A DNA stretch of 64,000 bases from Sulfurimonas sediminis (GTDB taxonomy: Bacteria; Campylobacterota; Campylobacteria; Campylobacterales; Sulfurimonadaceae), in assembly GCF_014905115.1 (NCBI RefSeq), contig NZ_CP041235.1, positions 620,001 to 684,000 of the forward strand, read 5' to 3'. Under the pieces are notes generated by a model that was not told the origin of the DNA, did not search any database, and saw only the letters and a list, made by a program, of their open reading frames with translations. The position numbers were made by a program, and so were the translations under genes. Below are positions 15,505 through 27,424 of this stretch, one piece after another. How positions within the stretch are numbered: position 1 is the stretch's first letter; each line of letters begins with the position of its first letter.

Positions 15505-16698
15505 ATGAAATATGAGACACAAAAGAGTCTACTGTTCTCAAAAGAGTCGCAGTTAAATACAAATAAGGGAGAGGTTTTTTATAAAAATCTTTATCGTCAT
15601 TGTGAAGATCGTCTTATAAAACTAAGAAAAAAAGTCTCTTTTTCAGATGAAGATGTTACAACTGTCTTAGCTGAAGAGGGGTATGAGCGTCGAGATTTTA
15701 TGAAGTGGGTGAGTGCAACAACAGCCGCACTTATGCTTCCTGCTTTTTTCGAACCTTTAGTTGCTCAAACTATAGAAGTGCTTAATAGAGTACCGGTTAT
15801 TTGGGTAAATCTGCAAGACTGTGCAGGAAACTCTGAAGCACTACTTCGTGCAGATGGTCCTACTGTTGACGAACTAATTCTCGACATAATTTCATTAGAA
15901 TTTCATGAACTCTTAATGGCACCATCAGGCGAAGCTGCAGAGATTCAGCTTGAGGATGCTATGACTACTTTTAAAGGGGAGTACCTCCTCTTTGTCGAGG
16001 GGTCCATTCCTACTGCAGACGGAGGTATCTATGGTACTATTGGTACAAGTGGAGAAAAATATGTTGATCATATAAAGCGTGTGGCTGTAGATGCTGCGGG
16101 GATAGTTGCAGTAGGTACATGTGCTACTTATGGCGGTGTTTCAGCTGCCTATCCAAATCCTACAGGGGCATGTGGTGTTATGGATATTATAAAAGATAAG
16201 CCGATAGTAAATATTCCTGCATGTCCTGCAAATCCTGCAAATATGCTTGGTGTTATCCTTATGTATGCTATGACAGGGGAGCTTCCTGAACTTGATACAC
16301 TGTTGAGACCAAAATTTGCTTTTGGAACGCGTATTCATGATACTTGTGAGCGTCGTGTTCATTTTGATGCGGGTGAATATGTTGAAGAGTGGGGTGATGC
16401 TGCAGCACAGGCGGGACATTGTCTTTATAAAATGGGCTGTAAAGGGCCTATGACTTTTAATAACTGCCCAACTGTAAAATTTAATCGAGGTGAGAGTTGG
16501 CCGGTAGCTGCAGGACATGGCTGTATAGGGTGTTCTGAACCTGGCTTTTTTGATAAGTTTAACCACTTTGAAGCACCGACACCATACGATAAAACATATA
16601 ATCCTGCTGCGGATTTGACGACAATTACAGAAGGTGTTGTTGTCTTAACAGCCTTTAGTCAATTTTTAAACAAAGAGGAGTACAACAATGGCAACTAA
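15505..16698 (+). CDS. [NiFe] hydrogenase small subunit, Tat-exported, with variant proximal-cluster motif
   Basis: Iron-sulfur electron-transfer subunit of a periplasmic uptake hydrogenase. From ATG 15505 (SD GAGGGGG) the 397-residue protein carries a twin-arginine signal ERRDFMKWVSATTAALMLPA at 61-80, after an unusually long leader of about 60 residues. The later cluster ligands are present: GTCATYGG, PACPANPA, IHDTCERR, GHCLYKMGCKGP, NNCP and GHGCIGCSEP. The first proximal motif reads DCAGNSEA (Cys106, Asn109), where the family normally has CxxC. No C-terminal membrane anchor is seen. Overlaps the large subunit by 11 bases. Confidence 0.93.
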   Translation: MKYETQKSLLFSKESQLNTNKGEVFYKNLYRHCEDRLIKLRKKVSFSDEDVTTVLAEEGYERRDFMKWVSATTAALMLPAFFEPLVAQTIEVLNRVPVIWVNLQDCAGNSEALLRADGPTVDELILDIISLEFHELLMAPSGEAAEIQLEDAMTTFKGEYLLFVEGSIPTADGGIYGTIGTSGEKYVDHIKRVAVDAAGIVAVGTCATYGGVSAAYPNPTGACGVMDIIKDKPIVNIPACPANPANMLGVILMYAMTGELPELDTLLRPKFAFGTRIHDTCERRVHFDAGEYVEEWGDAAAQAGHCLYKMGCKGPMTFNNCPTVKFNRGESWPVAAGHGCIGCSEPGFFDKFNHFEAPTPYDKTYNPAADLTTITEGVVVLTAFSQFLNKEEYNNGN

Positions 16699-18424
16699 AC
16701 ATATTGTAATTGATCCAATTACCCGTATTGAAGGACACATGCGTATAGAAGTTGTTGTAGATGAAACAACGAATGAAGTTGTAGATGCTTTTTGCTCATC
16801 AAATATGTTTCGAGGAATTGAGACAATTTTAAAAGATAGAGACCCTAGAGATTGTGGACTTATGGCGATGCGAATTTGTGGTGTCTGTACGGTTACACAT
16901 TATCAAAGAAGTATTGAAGCAGTCGAGAATGCTTTTAATGTGCAGGTTCCAAAGAATGCTCGTTTGATGAGAAATATCATTCAAGGTTCTCTTTTTATGC
17001 ATGACCACCTTGTGCATTATTATCATTTGCATTCGCTTGATTGGGTAGATGTTCTCTCTGCTCTTGAAGCTGATCCTGCAGATGCTGTTGTAGAAGCACA
17101 AAAGTGGGCAGATGTTGCCGGTGAGGTGCCATGGAATAATGATGTTGCTACTTATACAGATATAAAAGATAAGTTGACAAAATTTGTTGCAAGAAGAAGA
17201 TTAGGGATTTTTGGTAATGGATACTGGGGGAATAGAAGTTATAAACTTACTCCAGCACAAAATCTTCTTGCAATGACACACTATTTTCAAGCACTTGAAA
17301 TTCAAAGAGATTTAGGGCAGATGATGGCTGTTTTTGGTGGAAAAGATCCGCACCCTCAAAGTTTTGTAGTAGGGGGCGTTACTTCTATTGTAAACATGAA
17401 AGACCCAGCTAAGATAGAGCTTTTTCGTACACTTGCACTGAGAGTACGACAGTTCTTAAAAGGTGCTTACATGCTTGACATGTATATGCTTGCTGATGCA
17501 TATAAAGATGAGATGCTTGCTGGTGTAGGAGGAGGGTTAAAAAGCTTCTTGGTATATGGTGGATTTCCTTTAGAAGATGTGCCGATAGAGAGTGCAAGAA
17601 AACTTTTTCCAGGTGGTGTCGTTTATAACGGAGATTTAAATAATGTTATTGATTTTGATTCTACTTTAGTGACAGAAGACGCAACACATGCTTGGTATGC
17701 CGCAACAACACCAGAACACCCATATGAAGGTACAACGACACCAGAATATACAGATTTTAAATTGATTGAAAATGGTGTTGCTTATCTTGATACTGATGGA
17801 AAATATTCATGGATTAAGTCACCACTTTATGATGATAAAAGAGTAGAAGTTGGACCTTTGGCTCGAATGGTTGTTGGCTATGCAAGAGGAGATACTCTTA
17901 TAAAACAATATGTAGATAATTTTCTTTCACGCGCGAATATGTCACTTGAAAACTTATATTCATCAACAGGGCGAACTATAGCACGAGCGATTGAGTCTGA
18001 GCTTATAGCTGATGTTATTACAGATTGGCTTGATGAACTAGATACGAATATTCAAGGTGGTGATACAACAAGCTGGACGAAGTTTGATTTTGCAAATGTG
18101 AGTGCAAATGCACAAGGACGGGGGCTTGAAGAGGCACCAAGAGGGGCACTTGGACACTGGGTGAAGATAGCTAATGGAAAAGTCTTAAATTATCAGGCTG
18201 TGGTACCATCTACATGGAATGCAGGACCAAGAGATCACTTGGGCAGACTTGGTGCATATGAAGAGAGTATAAAAGGTTTAGTTTTAAGCAATATTGATGA
18301 ACCTTTGGAAATTTTAAGAACAGTGCATAGTTTTGATCCTTGTATTGCTTGTGCGGTACATGTAATCAATACACAAGGTAAAGAGCTTAGCTCTTTTAAA
18401 GTCAGTGCAACATGTACGGCATAA
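16688..18424 (+). CDS. [NiFe] hydrogenase large (catalytic) subunit
   Basis: Carries the Ni-Fe active site that splits H2. Both metal-binding motifs are intact: RICGVCTVTH (Cys64, Cys67) and DPCIACAVH (Cys552, Cys555). The 20 residues after His558 form the C-terminal peptide that a maturation protease normally removes, so processing is expected, but no such protease or hyp gene is in the window. Length 578 is normal for the periplasmic group 1 type. The next gene, a multiheme cytochrome, starts 14 bases downstream. Confidence 0.96.
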   Translation: MATKHIVIDPITRIEGHMRIEVVVDETTNEVVDAFCSSNMFRGIETILKDRDPRDCGLMAMRICGVCTVTHYQRSIEAVENAFNVQVPKNARLMRNIIQGSLFMHDHLVHYYHLHSLDWVDVLSALEADPADAVVEAQKWADVAGEVPWNNDVATYTDIKDKLTKFVARRRLGIFGNGYWGNRSYKLTPAQNLLAMTHYFQALEIQRDLGQMMAVFGGKDPHPQSFVVGGVTSIVNMKDPAKIELFRTLALRVRQFLKGAYMLDMYMLADAYKDEMLAGVGGGLKSFLVYGGFPLEDVPIESARKLFPGGVVYNGDLNNVIDFDSTLVTEDATHAWYAATTPEHPYEGTTTPEYTDFKLIENGVAYLDTDGKYSWIKSPLYDDKRVEVGPLARMVVGYARGDTLIKQYVDNFLSRANMSLENLYSSTGRTIARAIESELIADVITDWLDELDTNIQGGDTTSWTKFDFANVSANAQGRGLEEAPRGALGHWVKIANGKVLNYQAVVPSTWNAGPRDHLGRLGAYEESIKGLVLSNIDEPLEILRTVHSFDPCIACAVHVINTQGKELSSFKVSATCTA

Positions 18425-18438
18425 CAGAGGAGTAAAAA

Positions 18439-19575
18439 ATGTATCGTATAACAAAATATATATTTTTAAGTTTTTTAGTAATATTTTTATCTGCTTGTGG
18501 TACTACGGAAGATGACACACAATCTGTTACAGTATCTTCTGAATCCAGTTCTAGCAGTGATGACAATTATGATTATTATACACCAACACAACCTCCAGTA
18601 GTATCACCACCTTTGATGCAACCTGCAAGTGTTACAACTGGGCTGAATGATTGGAGAAAACCAAGAGTTTACGCAAAAACAAAAATACTAGATTCATGTA
18701 ACGGCGAGAGCGTCTTCTCATTGCGTCCACATAAAAATACATTAGAAGCGATATTTGTTGATTATACTATGCCAACAATTTATCCAGATGGATATAGCCT
18801 TATAGCTGTACAGACAAGAGACACAACATTTTCTATTCCATTACAGTACAATAGTGCAACACATAAGTGGAGTAAAGAGTGTGCTACTGTAAAATATGTA
18901 GATAAAAATGACATCTATCCGACATATTTAATACGAGCAGTTAATGATGCAAACGGGAGCATTGTTACTGAGGAGAAGGTGGTGATGTTTGATGGTGGAA
19001 CAGAAAATTGTAAGGCGTGTCATGCATCTAATTCTGCTTATCCTTTGGCATATCCAAGTTCTGGAGCAGTAAATCTTGCTGATGCTGAAGCAGATTATAA
19101 AACAAATATTTTAGCATTGCATGATCAAAAACATCCAAATGCAGTATCTGGTTTACTGAGTTTATTAGAAGCAAAAGGCAAAATGTATGATACTGCTGGG
19201 CTTGTAGCAACATCACAAAGTACGCGAGTTACTTGTACAGATTGTCATGGAATTAATGCTGTACAAGCGAGTGGCTTTAAAAATGTACCAGCTTTGACAA
19301 ATGCTATTCATGATGTGCATGCAAACCTAAGTGAGCCAAACATTACAGGACCAAATAACTGTTTAACTTGTCACCCAGGAGAGACAATTACAAAAACATT
19401 TAACGGAAAGATAGTTCACCCGTTTACTGATGCATGGAAGGATGAAGATGGGCATGGTGAATGGAGTGAAAATAATGGTGTTTCTAGTTGTACTTTATGT
19501 CACGGTATGGATTTAAGAGGCACAAAAATATCTAACAATGTGAGTTGTTACAAATGTCATGGTAAAGAGTGGTAG
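18439..19575 (+). CDS. Pentaheme cytochrome c lipoprotein of the hydrogenase operon
   Basis: Likely electron acceptor for the hydrogenase. A lipoprotein signal (FLVIFLSAC, Cys at about residue 20) is followed by a Ser/Asp-rich linker, a domain of about 120 residues without hemes, and five CxxCH heme sites: CKACH, CTDCH, CLTCH, CTLCH and CYKCH. The last lies nearly at the C-terminus. Group 1 hydrogenases usually pair with a membrane cytochrome b, which is absent here. Partnership is inferred from the 14-base gap and shared orientation; I cannot name a family. Confidence 0.85.
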   Translation: MYRITKYIFLSFLVIFLSACGTTEDDTQSVTVSSESSSSSDDNYDYYTPTQPPVVSPPLMQPASVTTGLNDWRKPRVYAKTKILDSCNGESVFSLRPHKNTLEAIFVDYTMPTIYPDGYSLIAVQTRDTTFSIPLQYNSATHKWSKECATVKYVDKNDIYPTYLIRAVNDANGSIVTEEKVVMFDGGTENCKACHASNSAYPLAYPSSGAVNLADAEADYKTNILALHDQKHPNAVSGLLSLLEAKGKMYDTAGLVATSQSTRVTCTDCHGINAVQASGFKNVPALTNAIHDVHANLSEPNITGPNNCLTCHPGETITKTFNGKIVHPFTDAWKDEDGHGEWSENNGVSSCTLCHGMDLRGTKISNNVSCYKCHGKEW

Positions 19576-22445: not shown

Positions 22446-23717
22446 TTAAAAACAGACTACTTGATTTCGTCCATTTGCTTTTGCCTCGTATAAAGCCTGA
22501 TCAACGCGTTTTAAGAGTGATGTCTCCTTTTCTGTGTTTATGTACTCTGTAACGCCAATACTTACTGTAATTTTTTCTACATGTTCAAAAGAATGTTCTT
22601 CTACCCTTTTACGTATTTTTTGGGCAAGTTCCATGGCCTGCTCAGCATTTGTATGGGGAGCCAGCAGCATAAACTCTTCACCGCCCCATCGTCCGAAACT
22701 GTCCGTTTTTCTTATGGTTTGCAAAACAATACGACTCAACTCCTGCAAAACATAATCGCCTACATCATGTCCATAGGTGTCATTGACATGCTTAAATTTG
22801 TCTATGTCAAGCATAAGCAGGCTGAAAACTTCACCGTATCGTTTTGTTCTTTTTATTTCATCTTCTATAAGCGTTGACATTTTATAACGATTATACAAGC
22901 CTGTAAGCGCATCTTTGGTTGCAAGTTTTTGAAGTTCTTTTTCCAGGGCAACCCTTTGTGTTATATCACGGCTTGTAGAGACAAAGTAGCGCACTTTTCC
23001 GTTTTTATCTTTTATGGGAGAGATGATTTTTTCATCATAGTACAGACTTCCGTCTTTTCTTTTGTTGATTAAAGTATTTTGGTAGGTTTTCCCGTCCAGG
23101 ACAGTTTTCCATAAATTGTCATAAAATTTTTTTGAATGTTCTCCTGATTTGAGTATACGGTTGCTTTTTCCTATAAGCTCACTCTCTTCATATTGTGTAT
23201 TCTCGGTTGCAGCAGGATTTACATAAATGATTTTTCCGTCAACATCTGTAATTTGTACCATTTCATGCATCTGTTCTACAGCCTGCGAAAGAAGTTTCAG
23301 CTTCTCTTCGCTCTTTTTGAGCTGCTGTGCTGCTCTTTCATTTTGTATGCGTTGTATAAGGGTTTCTAATTTTTCATTAACAGCATCCAAATCTACCGGT
23401 TTGAGAATGTAGCCGTCTATTCCAAGGTTAATGGCTTTGTGTAAAAATTCACTGTCATTGTGAGCGGTTATAAGCATAATAAGTTGGGAAGGATTGATTT
23501 TTTTGATGGCTTCAACCATCTCAAGCCCACTCATTTTTGGCATACGGATATCTGAAATAACAATATCAGGATGGTGTTTTTTGTACAAAGAGAGACCCTC
23601 TTCTCCATCTTTTGCAATATAAATCTTCGTGCAAAAACGCTGTAAAAAGCGTGAGAGCATCTCTCTTACATGTACTTCATCTTCCACATACAGTATAGTA
23701 ATATCATTCTTACTCAT
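22446..23717 (-). CDS. Response regulator diguanylate cyclase (REC-PAS-GGDEF)
   Basis: Output protein of the adjacent histidine kinase. It has a receiver with phospho-acceptor Asp56 (ISDIRMPKMSG), a PAS domain (about 145-260; IIYVNPAATENTQYEESEL, PAC-like KDKNGKVRYFVSTSRDIT) and a GGDEF domain with DALTGLYNRYK and intact GGEEF. It should make cyclic-di-GMP when phosphorylated. ATG at 23717 gives an 8-base overlap with the kinase gene; a TTG one codon upstream is possible. Confidence 0.9.
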   Translation of the reverse strand: MSKNDITILYVEDEVHVREMLSRFLQRFCTKIYIAKDGEEGLSLYKKHHPDIVISDIRMPKMSGLEMVEAIKKINPSQLIMLITAHNDSEFLHKAINLGIDGYILKPVDLDAVNEKLETLIQRIQNERAAQQLKKSEEKLKLLSQAVEQMHEMVQITDVDGKIIYVNPAATENTQYEESELIGKSNRILKSGEHSKKFYDNLWKTVLDGKTYQNTLINKRKDGSLYYDEKIISPIKDKNGKVRYFVSTSRDITQRVALEKELQKLATKDALTGLYNRYKMSTLIEDEIKRTKRYGEVFSLLMLDIDKFKHVNDTYGHDVGDYVLQELSRIVLQTIRKTDSFGRWGGEEFMLLAPHTNAEQAMELAQKIRKRVEEHSFEHVEKITVSIGVTEYINTEKETSLLKRVDQALYEAKANGRNQVVCF

Positions 23718-25662
23718 CAAAGTCTATCCTAAATTCTGCACCTTCGTTGGTGTTTTTTACGCTCAGTTTTGCGTTCATATTTTCTTCAATCATCATTTTA
23801 GACATATAAAGACCCATTCCTGTTCCTTTGCCCTGTTCTTTTGTCGTAAAGTAGGGCTCAAAAACCCTGTCTATAACCTCTGGAGTGATTCCACCACCAT
23901 TATCACGTACTATTACTGTATGATTCTTTAAAACAATTGTAATTTTAGCGTCACTGATATTTCTTTCAAGCAAAACATCTTTTGCATTGTTGATAAGATT
24001 TAAAATAACCTGCTGCAGTTCATTTTTGTATCCGACTACTTCAAAATCTTCACCAAGCAGCGTAACTTTTATATTGTTGTTTTGCAATTGGGCCTTTTGA
24101 ATAGAGAGCACTCTTTGTATCGCCTCTTTTACACTGAATCGTTCCTGTGTTTTGTCAACCCGGTAAAAATTTCTAAAATCATCAATAGTATCGGACATAA
24201 ACTGAATCACTTTTTTTGTTGATTTTATAAAGTCATCAAGATACTCTTTTGTAATTAATCCGTCTTCATAGTCATATTTGAGATTTTGAACGGCTATGCT
24301 TATCTCATTAAGCGGTTGTCTCCACTGATGGGCAATGGCGCCTATCATCTCTCCCATGGATGCAAGTTTACTCTGCTGTTGGAGTGTTTCAAGCTGTCTG
24401 ATATTTTCATTTGTTTTTTCTTTTACGAGTTCTTCGAGTGTTTCATTGAGTTTGTTAAGCTCTTCTGTGCGCTCTTTGACTTTTTTCTCGACATCTTTTT
24501 TTGACTCCTCTAACTTTTGAAGCATAATCTGCAGAGAGTCTGCCAACTCTTCTATTTCATCATGTGTATGAATAGTATTGAAGTCAATGTTGTTTTTTGA
24601 AGTATCATTGGCAATGGCTTTTGCGGCCTGGGTGATTTTACTCAGCGGTGTAATAAGTCGACGGACAAGTATAAGAGATACCAAAGCAATAAGCAGGGAG
24701 ACCAACAAACTGTAAAGAGCAAGTGAGCGAATAAAATTTTCATAGTCTTTTTGTAAAAAACTGCTTGTAGATGTAAGTGCAATGTATATAAATTTATCTT
24801 TTGTATAGTGAAGTGTTGTATAGGTAAACAATATATCATCTTTATAGTAACTCTGTTTACTCAGATCAAAATCATAATCAAGTCTGTACTCTTTGTGTCC
24901 AAACACATATCCGAATGTTTTGCTTTGGTCCTTATTGTAAATATAGTATTTGTTTTTGTCCGCAAGATAGATATTTTTAGGGCTGTTTTTGTCATCATAT
25001 TGTTTAATCACCCGAAAAAGTTTATTGATATTTGCATTAATGATGAGCATACCAAAGAGTTTTTTATCAATATATATTGGTAAAGAGATGCGAATAGTCG
25101 GCGTAAGCGGATAGGAAAGCTGTCCATACTCTTTATTGAGTGTTATATCTGAGACAGAAACCTCTTTTGGGTAGAGTTTTATTGTTTCTTGAAAGTATTT
25201 TTTTGCTGCTTTATCCTGTAAGAGACTCTTCTTTTGAATATGTACTCCCTGTTTGTCTTTATAGGTGACAAGGAGTTCCCAACCAGTTTTATATAAAAGA
25301 CGGATATTGAAATAGGCATCGTTATGTGATAAAAGAGCGATAAAGTTTTTTTCAAGAGAAGACTGTATCCCTTCCAAGGTTCTGTTTGTTTTTTTATCAT
25401 AATTGTAAGGATTGTAAAATGCCCGTGTATATGCTATAACATCTTCATTTTTTGAGAGAACTTTTGCATCATATATAACCTGTTTGATGTCATTGTAAAT
25501 ACTTTCTTTGTTTTGTTTGAGTTCAAAGTTGAGATGTTCAAGGGAGTTCTCTTTTGAATACTGCATCATAAGAGAAAAAGATAAAAAGACAATCACAAGT
25601 ATTCCGACAGTGGCAATGATAAAAATGCTGATGGCAACCTTTGTTGAGAGACTAATGCGCAT
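23710..25662 (-). CDS. Cache-domain sensor histidine kinase
   Basis: Membrane sensor kinase of 650 residues: helix at about 8-32, a large periplasmic dCache-like domain (about 35-310; SYPLTPTIRISLPIYIDKKL, FGMLIINANINKLF), second helix near 325-345, HAMP, coiled coil (about 395-435), then the phospho-acceptor His445 in GAIAHQWRQPLNEISI and an HATPase with NLINNAKDVL, VRDNGGGI and GKGTGMGLYMS. The ATG at 25662 overlaps the upstream repeat-protein gene by 11 bases (ATGCGCATTAG); a TTG 30 bases earlier is less likely. It is coupled on both sides, so the repeat protein, kinase and cyclase are probably one system. Confidence 0.9.
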   Translation of the reverse strand: MRISLSTKVAISIFIIATVGILVIVFLSFSLMMQYSKENSLEHLNFELKQNKESIYNDIKQVIYDAKVLSKNEDVIAYTRAFYNPYNYDKKTNRTLEGIQSSLEKNFIALLSHNDAYFNIRLLYKTGWELLVTYKDKQGVHIQKKSLLQDKAAKKYFQETIKLYPKEVSVSDITLNKEYGQLSYPLTPTIRISLPIYIDKKLFGMLIINANINKLFRVIKQYDDKNSPKNIYLADKNKYYIYNKDQSKTFGYVFGHKEYRLDYDFDLSKQSYYKDDILFTYTTLHYTKDKFIYIALTSTSSFLQKDYENFIRSLALYSLLVSLLIALVSLILVRRLITPLSKITQAAKAIANDTSKNNIDFNTIHTHDEIEELADSLQIMLQKLEESKKDVEKKVKERTEELNKLNETLEELVKEKTNENIRQLETLQQQSKLASMGEMIGAIAHQWRQPLNEISIAVQNLKYDYEDGLITKEYLDDFIKSTKKVIQFMSDTIDDFRNFYRVDKTQERFSVKEAIQRVLSIQKAQLQNNNIKVTLLGEDFEVVGYKNELQQVILNLINNAKDVLLERNISDAKITIVLKNHTVIVRDNGGGITPEVIDRVFEPYFTTKEQGKGTGMGLYMSKMMIEENMNAKLSVKNTNEGAEFRIDFDE

Positions 25663-27424
25663 AGGTACTGTCTCTGAGAATTTGTTGTGCAAGTTTATTT
25701 GTTGCCTCTAAGACACTGAAAACATCTGAGGGTGTTTTGTTCTTTGGTGTTTTTTGTGAAAGCGCAGTTGTATGCTCTTGTATATTATAGTAAACGCGCA
25801 GTTCTGAAACAGTTCCGCTGATGAGGCGTAAGGCATTATATACAGAGTTCGGTGTGATGATTTTGTCACGCGGAATAGTCAGTGTTGCCGAGTTGAGATT
25901 GCCTCTTTTTTTGATTTTTGTAAGTGTCTGCATCAGTTGTAAACTTTGCATAAAGACATCAGCGGGAGCTTTTGATTCATACTTCAGTAAAGGAATAAGC
26001 ATCTGTTTTTGCGTCAAATGATAAGTGACAATCTGGATGTTTTTATAGAGTTTGACAGCAAGAATATAGGTCTCATTCGGAGTATACTCCTGATTTAAAA
26101 TTGTGTCAAGTTCATACGATATTTTCCATAAGAGATTATAAACATCAGAAGGTGTTTTGTCCTGGTAGATTTTTTTCTCGAGGTAATTTCTGTAGGAGAT
26201 AAAATTATAATTATATTTTTTTGTATTGTAAACAAGGTTGATTTCATCATCAAGTCGTAAAATGAGTTCATATACCTCACTTGGTGTTATTTTTGTATTT
26301 GGTGCATCAGGGATTTGTGAAGGATAAAATCCTTCGAGTGATTTTAGTTTTGCTGTTTTTTCCAAATCTTCAAGACCCTTTACATAGACATAAATAGGCT
26401 CAAGTCCATATACATACGGTACTTTTTTTGCTTTGAGCTGGATGCCTCTTCTCTCTTTGATTCGCATAATTTTATGCAAAATATATTCGCTGAGTGCATA
26501 CACTTCATTCGGTGTTTTGATAAGTGATTTTTGTGGATATTGATTGAGCGGATGAGAAAAATCAAAAGTAGGCAGCAGGGCTTTTGCATATTCAAGATTT
26601 TGGACGACATCCGAAGGTGTCTTTTTTGTTTGGAGTTTTTTTGGTGGAAAACTTCTTTCTATTCCCAAACGGCGAGAGAGTCTGTTAAGCTCTGCTTTGA
26701 CGGTTTGGAGCGAATCATACACTTCTGTGGGAGAGATGACTTTGTGCTTGGCTTTTGGGACAGGTACGGGTGTCATCCAGAGTTTTTTTTCAACTTCACT
26801 TATCTTTTTTATCAAATCTATTGAGGCATAAAGTGCATGATTTGGATGAAGGTTTGGTCGTTTTGGCGGCATTTTTACATCACTGTACTCTCTTTGTGAA
26901 GAGCGTAAAAACTCAATACGCTCAAGAATCTGCTGTGATTGGATATAAACATCACTCGGGGTAAATCCCTGTCCCAGCAACTCATCGAAACCAAGAGAAA
27001 CTGTCCAGAGTACTTGGTAAACATCACTCGGTGTTTTGTCTTTGTACTGTTTGTAAGCAAAGTACTTTTTTTGGTTTTTGAGCAGGTAGTGAATCTCTTC
27101 TTTGAGTCGTATGACATTGTTGTATACATCCTGCGGGGTAATTTTTCTTGGAGGAACAGGCGGAATGGCAATAGGACCAAAGTTATGTATTTCTCTGTAT
27201 TTGTTTACTTTTGTCAATACCTCAAGTGTTTTTTGAATAACATGCCGCGGCAGTTTGTTATGTTGCTGTTCAACCTCTTTGAGCGGTTTTGTGATGCCGT
27301 TTTCTTTGCGCAGTTCTTCAACCATCTGTTTGAGTACAATAGACTGCGAATAGACATCAGAAGGTGTCTTTACCGAAGCATATAAAAATATCCCAAAGAG
27401 TAAAAAAAGCTGTATAAATTTCAT
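25652..27424 (-). CDS. Exported protein with about 16 TPSDVY-type repeats, unknown function
   Basis: I do not recognise this 590-residue protein. Residues 1-16 are a signal peptide (FIQLFLLFGIFLYAS). The rest is built of units of roughly 24-40 residues, each opening with a motif like KTPSDVY or ITPSEVY, followed by an amphipathic helix. Clear copies begin near 19, 95, 130, 154, 231, 268, 302, 381, 422, 446, 481, 521 and 563; weaker ones near 57, 196 and 343. A larger block (about 94-290) is repeated at about 380-585, with the same order and tell-tale spacing (KDKTPSDVYQVLW versus QDKTPSDVYNLLW). It is probably periplasmic and may present a signal to the Cache kinase encoded next. Confidence 0.85.
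   Translation of the reverse strand: MKFIQLFLLFGIFLYASVKTPSDVYSQSIVLKQMVEELRKENGITKPLKEVEQQHNKLPRHVIQKTLEVLTKVNKYREIHNFGPIAIPPVPPRKITPQDVYNNVIRLKEEIHYLLKNQKKYFAYKQYKDKTPSDVYQVLWTVSLGFDELLGQGFTPSDVYIQSQQILERIEFLRSSQREYSDVKMPPKRPNLHPNHALYASIDLIKKISEVEKKLWMTPVPVPKAKHKVISPTEVYDSLQTVKAELNRLSRRLGIERSFPPKKLQTKKTPSDVVQNLEYAKALLPTFDFSHPLNQYPQKSLIKTPNEVYALSEYILHKIMRIKERRGIQLKAKKVPYVYGLEPIYVYVKGLEDLEKTAKLKSLEGFYPSQIPDAPNTKITPSEVYELILRLDDEINLVYNTKKYNYNFISYRNYLEKKIYQDKTPSDVYNLLWKISYELDTILNQEYTPNETYILAVKLYKNIQIVTYHLTQKQMLIPLLKYESKAPADVFMQSLQLMQTLTKIKKRGNLNSATLTIPRDKIITPNSVYNALRLISGTVSELRVYYNIQEHTTALSQKTPKNKTPSDVFSVLEATNKLAQQILRDSTYAH

Follow-up and report, generated by a model that had tools for sequence, protein, structure and literature searches.

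The locus lies in the genome of Sulfurimonas sediminis, a single contig of 2.32 Mb, inside the window G000:C1:620001-684000 (the whole stretch of DNA that was analyzed, 64,000 nucleotides). Three genes follow one another on the minus strand: one for an exported helical repeat protein, here termed REP, the only REP gene of this genome, then one for a histidine kinase of the PF21623 sensor type, and then one for a REC-PAS-GGDEF regulator (Table 1). The ORF coordinates of all three genes bear out the overlaps of 11 and 8 bases described in an earlier, sequence-only reading of this DNA; with the alternative kinase start, a TTG at 25692, the overlap with REP would be 41 bases instead of 11. An 11-base overlap between REP and its receptor is seen again in 11 of 54 REP-receptor pairs, the window pair not counted. 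Where the earlier reading held that the overlaps imply coupled production, we would say that the conserved overlap fits coupled production of REP and receptor. Elsewhere in the window, at 16688-19575 on the plus strand, an ORF resembling the large subunit of a NiFe hydrogenase precedes a second one that begins like a lipoprotein and contains five CxxCH motifs.

Table 1. Genes, overlaps and domains of the three-gene module, in window coordinates.
Feature	Position	Strand	Detail	Basis
REP, exported helical repeat protein	25652..27424	-	590 aa	ORF, motif count, AlphaFold model
REP signal peptide, Sec-type	27377..27424	-	residues 1-16, MKFIQLFLLFGIFLYA, no lipobox	translation; cleavage site by eye
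REP N-domain, eight helical units	26522..27376	-	starts at residues 20, 58, 96, 131, 155, 193, 231, 269	
REP C-domain, eight helical units	25655..26521	-	starts at residues 304, 342, 380, 424, 448, 486, 524, 564	
Overlap, REP stop / kinase ATG	25652..25662	-	11 bases	ORF coordinates
Histidine kinase	23710..25662	-	650 aa from ATG at 25662, two TM segments	ORF + Pfam + TM prediction
Kinase periplasmic sensor domain	24721..25581	-	residues 28-314; PF21623 match 100-264	Pfam + TM segments
Kinase HAMP domain	24505..24669	-	residues 332-386	Pfam
Kinase HisKA + HATPase_c	23716..24357	-	residues 436-649	Pfam
Overlap, kinase stop / regulator ATG	23710..23717	-	8 bases	ORF coordinates
REC-PAS-GGDEF response regulator	22446..23717	-	423 aa	ORF + Pfam

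The TM segments of the kinase span residues 9-27 and 315-333. In Pfam the protein is a member of PF21623, HK_sensor_dom_bact (70.2 bits, cut-off 27); HAMP and HATPase_c likewise pass their cut-offs, and HisKA, at 25.8 bits, falls slightly below its cut-off of 26.9. Its earlier description as a Cache kinase holds through PF21623 only, as dCache_1 (PF02743) finds no match in the window kinase at E<=1 in the Pfam scan; in relatives of the kinase, dCache_1 matches the same sensor region below the cut-off. In the regulator, REC (93.3 bits), GGDEF (155.8 bits) and PAS are all above their Pfam cut-offs, and with REC and GGDEF so placed the protein is a predicted response-regulator diguanylate cyclase. 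Because GGEEF is retained in its translation and RKTD stands five residues upstream of it, we take the regulator, from the roles of these motifs, to be a probably active and product-inhibited cyclase.

A hydrophobic N-terminus is present in 65 of 68 REP ORFs (same-locus duplicates counted), beyond which REP has no TM segment. None of the 68 carries a surface anchor or a lipobox, and none therefore qualifies as a lipoprotein of the QseG type. The strict motif [TS]P[SNTQ][DE][VT][YFV] occurs in 11 copies in REP, against a mean of 0.0027 and a maximum of 1 in 10,000 shuffles, and a loose version in 13 copies (shuffles: mean 0.41, maximum 5). Adding three degenerate units at 38-residue spacing, PRHV, HPNHAL and EPIYVY, gives a total of 16 units of about 38 residues, eight in each half of the protein. 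The AlphaFold model confirms the roughly 16 units claimed earlier, with 16 long helices at the unit positions. Structure prediction of the repeat array alone, which the sequence-only reading had proposed as a check, was confident and all-helical, with a mean pLDDT of 90.5 and a pTM of 0.89 for whole REP (alignment of 24 sequences) and a pLDDT of 92.7 for the isolated N-domain. In the model the helix starts coincide with the TPxDVY motifs, and we therefore interpret the motif as a helix N-cap, not as a signature of binding.

The two halves of REP share 29% identity over 277 columns (BLASTP E 1e-40 in a two-sequence comparison) and are aligned by hhalign at a probability of 100%; as judged from its sequence, REP is a tandem duplication of an eight-helix domain of about 285 aa. 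In a tree of 64 single domains, 21 N-domains form one group (100/100) and 20 C-domains another (82/76), and this separation points to one old duplication as the origin of the 600-aa form. The N-domain is the more conserved of the two, with 43 of 286 positions invariant versus 9 of 288 in the C-domain, counted over 24 sequences with the truncated L094 excluded. The polar positions kept across partner classes, K65, E68, K72, R106, S143 and D147, sit on units 2, 3 and 4; of 63 domains drawn from every partner class, 62 keep K72, 60 S143, 59 D147, 56 K65 and 55 E68.

REP had been called unlike any known family, a view that our searches uphold. No Pfam or NCBIfam model exceeds its cut-off for REP, and the profile searches, which could have placed the protein in a characterized family and so undone the earlier claim, put it in no known one. 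PF22748, the PexRD54 WY domain, reaches 26.2 bits with a cut-off of 27 and no single stretch passing, and NCBIfam dltC (E 0.012) stays far under its cut-off; both were discarded as short chance matches. DUF5496 in Pfam gives E 0.063. Helical repeat families such as TPR, HEAT and similar provide no Pfam repeat model matching REP at E<=1, and no periplasmic-binding-protein domain of the LuxP type is detected by Pfam or NCBIfam, the model being all-helical. A sequence search of the PDB returned nothing at E<=0.001, the only matches being two T-cell receptor chains at E 0.13. Foldseek against the PDB was equally empty at E<=0.001 (best E 0.28 for whole REP and 1.4 for a single domain), as was the viral structure library BFVD (best E 0.99). 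The fold was compared with PDB and viral structures, so that relatives among predicted cellular structures may have gone unnoticed.

VIA-align gave best Z-scores of 5.3 over 102 residues (rmsd 3.2) for whole REP and 5.2 over 99 residues for the domain, scores to be read with its own caveat that helical bundles with Z below ~13 may share only a common arrangement. Its top rows, at Z of ~5, are bundles of the aspartase/argininosuccinate lyase superfamily, and we took them as common helix packing. This weak resemblance of part of the bundle, together with the conserved charged residues, would be what a periplasmic enzyme making or removing the signal for the adjoining receptor might display. However, Z-scores of this size may reflect the common arrangement, Foldseek yields nothing at E<=0.001 and neither Pfam nor NCBIfam holds a lyase model for REP, and we hence judge an enzymatic role very improbable. 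Our literature search, whose coverage excluded most subscription journals and bioRxiv, found nothing on the REP family, and within the same coverage TPSDVY, TPSEVY, TPNDVY and TPTDVY appear in the text of 0 papers. Within the searches made, the family, its apparent fold and the breadth of its outputs look undescribed.

Relatives of REP, 300 or 600 aa in length, are scattered in Campylobacterota, Gammaproteobacteria and Planctomycetota. At E<=0.001, and with each count including its centre genome, the window REP as query matched 24 of 200 genomes of its family, a 300-aa relative 12 of 397 genomes of the phylum, and a 600-aa profile 19 of 298 genomes of the order. For an oceanospirillaceal genome, REP matches were found in 8 of 116 members of its family and in 16 of 369 members of its class, and two genome sets centred on a Candidatus Anammoxibacter genome yielded 2 of 62 and 3 of 199. 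Searching genome contigs with REP as a single protein recovered no relative, and an alignment-based search recovered 24 loci, from Sulfurimonas, Hydrogenimonas, Neptuniibacter, Marinobacterium, Candidatus Anammoxibacter and other genera; plasmids searched by tblastn with REP gave no match. One contig filed under a Persephonella MAG (Aquificota; L092) clusters within Campylobacterales in both trees, and misbinning is the probable cause.

The main sample comprised 62 distinct REP genes, same-locus duplicates removed; G273 (L076, E 5.5e-4) and a contig-end piece of G002 (L048), where local profiles find no REP ORF, were excluded from the counts. After 54 of the 62, the next same-strand gene encodes a protein with two TM segments 220-360 residues apart, as compared to 10 of 462 other genes of the same loci. 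By hand count, a PF21623-type kinase, plain or hybrid, comes after 29 REP genes of the 600-aa type, a large PF21623-HAMP-GAF hybrid kinase after 15 genes of the 300-aa type, and a truncated or split PF21623 receptor after three more. At L070:2880-6532, the protein encoded after REP is of the PF21623-HAMP-GAF type but terminates in a SpoIIE phosphatase and lacks a kinase domain. Chemoreceptor-type proteins follow at seven loci (L155-L161), with MCPsignal in all four scanned, and at L075 two REP genes are each followed by a PAS/GGDEF(-EAL) protein. In an anammox genome (L151:2606-7303), the genes after REP encode first a Peripla_BP_5 protein and next a dCache_1 kinase, an arrangement in which one kinase might have two periplasmic partners. 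No receptor adjoins REP at three of the 62 (L131, L133 and L152, a fragment), and one more, L162, is truncated at a contig end. Where a genome has more than one REP gene, a receptor adjoins each (2/2 in G155, 3/3 in G762).

L131:5075-6784 encodes a REP of the 600-aa type with no visible signal peptide, beside an Omp85 gene. L075:856-11266, from a metagenome assembly, places its two 300-aa REP genes amid PAS-GGDEF-EAL genes, and one of the partners looks interrupted.

At 23 of the 29 kinase loci of the 600-aa type, REC and GGDEF are found in the adjoining gene or genes, which lie upstream in one of the 23 (L035); three loci end at a contig edge, and the other three show REC-SpoIIE (L071), REC alone (L090) or a second kinase (L098). 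Where the gene after the hybrid kinase is visible at loci of the 300-aa type, it is CheB-CheR-like in 14 of 15. A CheB-CheR fusion adjoins the hybrid kinase at L036, L038-L047, L135, L222 and L223, in an operon without chemoreceptor. Other neighbors shared between loci (rRNA dimethylase, RNase J, GTP cyclohydrolase, sigma-54, TsaE and others) vary by lineage and were set aside as giving no functional hint.

A later sample of 21 new loci from Gammaproteobacteria and Planctomycetota provided 20 REP genes, L271 being without a REP ORF, and the same topology rule placed a receptor next in 14 of the 20. Inspection of each revealed kinases in eight cases and chemoreceptors in six, with a split chemoreceptor at L272, a HAMP-GGDEF receptor at L273 and a 4HB-PAS receptor at L276; at L278 a chemoreceptor lies two genes upstream of REP, and L262 and L268 have no receptor neighbor. 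The periplasmic regions of chemoreceptors beside REP (L155-L161, L258-L261, L264, L267) measure mostly 265-295 residues, with no Pfam assignment or weak ones only (4HB, HBM). As several chemoreceptor partners thus have Pfam-unassigned or 4HB-like periplasmic regions, REP is not bound to PF21623. Outputs are exchanged while REP is kept, with SpoIIE at L070, HAMP-GGDEF at L273 and chemoreceptors at L155, L156, L158, L161, L261, L264 and L267.

The sequence-only reading had suggested looking for a conserved neighborhood, and would have been contradicted by REP occurring mostly without its partners; a receptor gene is found beside REP across phyla. The proposed link to a kinase and cyclic-di-GMP agrees with the window module but is specific to neither, given the chemoreceptors, the diguanylate cyclase receptor and the SpoIIE-phosphatase receptor. 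Adjacency could also be an ordinary operon accident, a linked block having been spread by lateral transfer, with which the patchy occurrence (for instance in the 24/200 family genomes and 16/369 class genomes above) is in agreement. Yet one transfer does not give varied sensor domains, here the unrelated-looking PF21623 and 4HB-like or unassigned regions, together with five kinds of output, and we therefore regard such block transfer as extremely improbable.

PF21623, the sensor family of the window kinase, is common in the genus, where a census of 90 genomes detected 63 receptors in 47 of them. Of the 22 that carry HAMP, 18 have REP next to them, as compared to 0 of the 41 without detected HAMP, which are mostly PAS-GGDEF types and include four fragments showing the sensor only, one of them at a contig edge. 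Among the four HAMP receptors that lack REP, L224 sits at a contig edge and L221, L225 and L192 are truly without it; no convincing REP remnant was found beside these three, the sole tblastn match (E 0.003) lying inside the L192 receptor gene. L221 is a type-B kinase without REP. At L225 (G835:C196, 3396-7112), the genes for GNAT, kinase and REC-PAS-GGDEF regulator match those of the window but REP is missing, which looks like natural REP loss. Since L225, an intact close relative of the window kinase and regulator, has no REP, and neither do L221 and L192, the receptor can also occur alone. In a tree built from 77 sensor domains, REP-linked rows fall in two supported groups (20/23 and 13/14) separated by a six-row group without REP, and the REP label changes 6 times, versus a shuffled mean of 25.1, with 0 of 500 shuffles as low. 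Sixteen of the 77 rows were added for being REP-linked, and the genus census rather than the tree is therefore the unbiased figure.

Taken together, we propose that REP is a soluble periplasmic co-receptor controlling the receptor encoded beside it, here leading to cyclic-di-GMP, a reading to which we assign a probability of roughly 0.6. REP would be exported by the Sec route, fold into two eight-helix domains and, being made together with the receptor from overlapping genes, dock on the periplasmic sensor domain of the adjoining receptor. It would report a periplasmic cue, either a ligand held by the conserved polar residues or the state of the envelope, and thereby shift the kinase between its activities; the kinase would then phosphorylate the receiver of the REC-PAS-GGDEF protein, which would make cyclic-di-GMP. 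At other loci, the REP module would be coupled to hybrid kinases, to chemoreceptors, to a membrane diguanylate cyclase and to a SpoIIE-type phosphatase. The best-supported steps are the export of REP and its functional tie to the adjoining receptor, and REP probably reads an outside signal and hands it to the receptor. Binding of REP to the receptor, the ligand and its existence, the direction of control and phosphotransfer to the regulator are steps that we infer.

The poorly conserved C-domain counts against the co-receptor, as do the receptors that occur without REP and the REP genes with no receptor directly after them (L131, L133, L151, L152, L262, L268 and L278), and adjacency to the receptor would also fit a co-regulated effector. 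Repeat proteins are often scaffolds, and REP might belong to the envelope as an output or structural component (a scaffold, an adhesin subunit, or a tether to peptidoglycan or the outer membrane) that is merely co-expressed, as the receptor-less REP of L131, located beside Omp85 and other envelope-type genes, could indicate. In contrast, REP stays directly upstream while receptors and outputs vary, the 300-aa form is common, and neither lipobox nor surface anchor appears in the 68 ORFs, rendering an envelope role quite improbable.

CpxP, a modulator of CpxA, is the model for another explanation, according to which REP is a ligand-independent stoichiometric modulator (an activator, inhibitor or stabilizer) that reports the envelope state or its own abundance. 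The overlapping genes and tight spacing suggest a fixed stoichiometry; in addition, QseG is reported to activate QseE through concentration-dependent binding (PMC12691602) and DbfQ to move DbfS to phosphatase activity (PMC12714742). The buried-type polar positions kept across partners nevertheless suggest, from the sequences, more than an interaction surface, and we deem a pure modulator unlikely.

The co-receptor reading of REP has its closest counterparts in the same kinds of systems. LuxP has the fold of a periplasmic binding protein. LuxP is periplasmic and reads the ligand for the histidine kinase LuxQ, which has a tandem PAS-like (Cache-type) domain as its sensor (PMC8534201). REP differs in being all-helical, in having no periplasmic-binding-protein match in Pfam and in serving several kinds of receptor. 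QseG is described as an outer-membrane lipoprotein encoded between the kinase and regulator genes (PMC12691602), and as an operon accessory protein with a conserved neighbor that binds the kinase QseE periplasmically and sets its activity, as we suppose for REP; unlike QseG, REP has no lipobox, lies upstream of its receptor and matches no QseG-like family in Pfam or NCBIfam. The mode of control of DbfQ-DbfS resembles the one suggested for REP, but DbfQ is a small protein and REP a helical repeat protein of 300 or 600 aa (PMC12714742).

Periplasmic partners of sensor kinases are thus an arrangement already known, and of the new sensory arrangement announced by the sequence-only reading it is the family and its breadth that look new, not the principle. 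From its sequence context, the cyclic-di-GMP module of the window looks like one instance of a wider family of periplasmic receptor partners. More tentatively, and at somewhat less than even odds in our estimation, REP could be the first known representative of a whole class of periplasmic co-receptors, with one undescribed helical-repeat fold that, in at least three phyla, combines with transmembrane receptors whatever their output and supplies their ligand specificity. The signal is unidentified for a large share of bacterial receptors. If REP reads the signal, ligand screens on isolated sensor domains would miss it, and REP, as a small soluble protein, would if this is true become a handle for finding the signal, with the natural output swaps behind it allowing assays by kinase activity, chemotaxis or cyclic-di-GMP.
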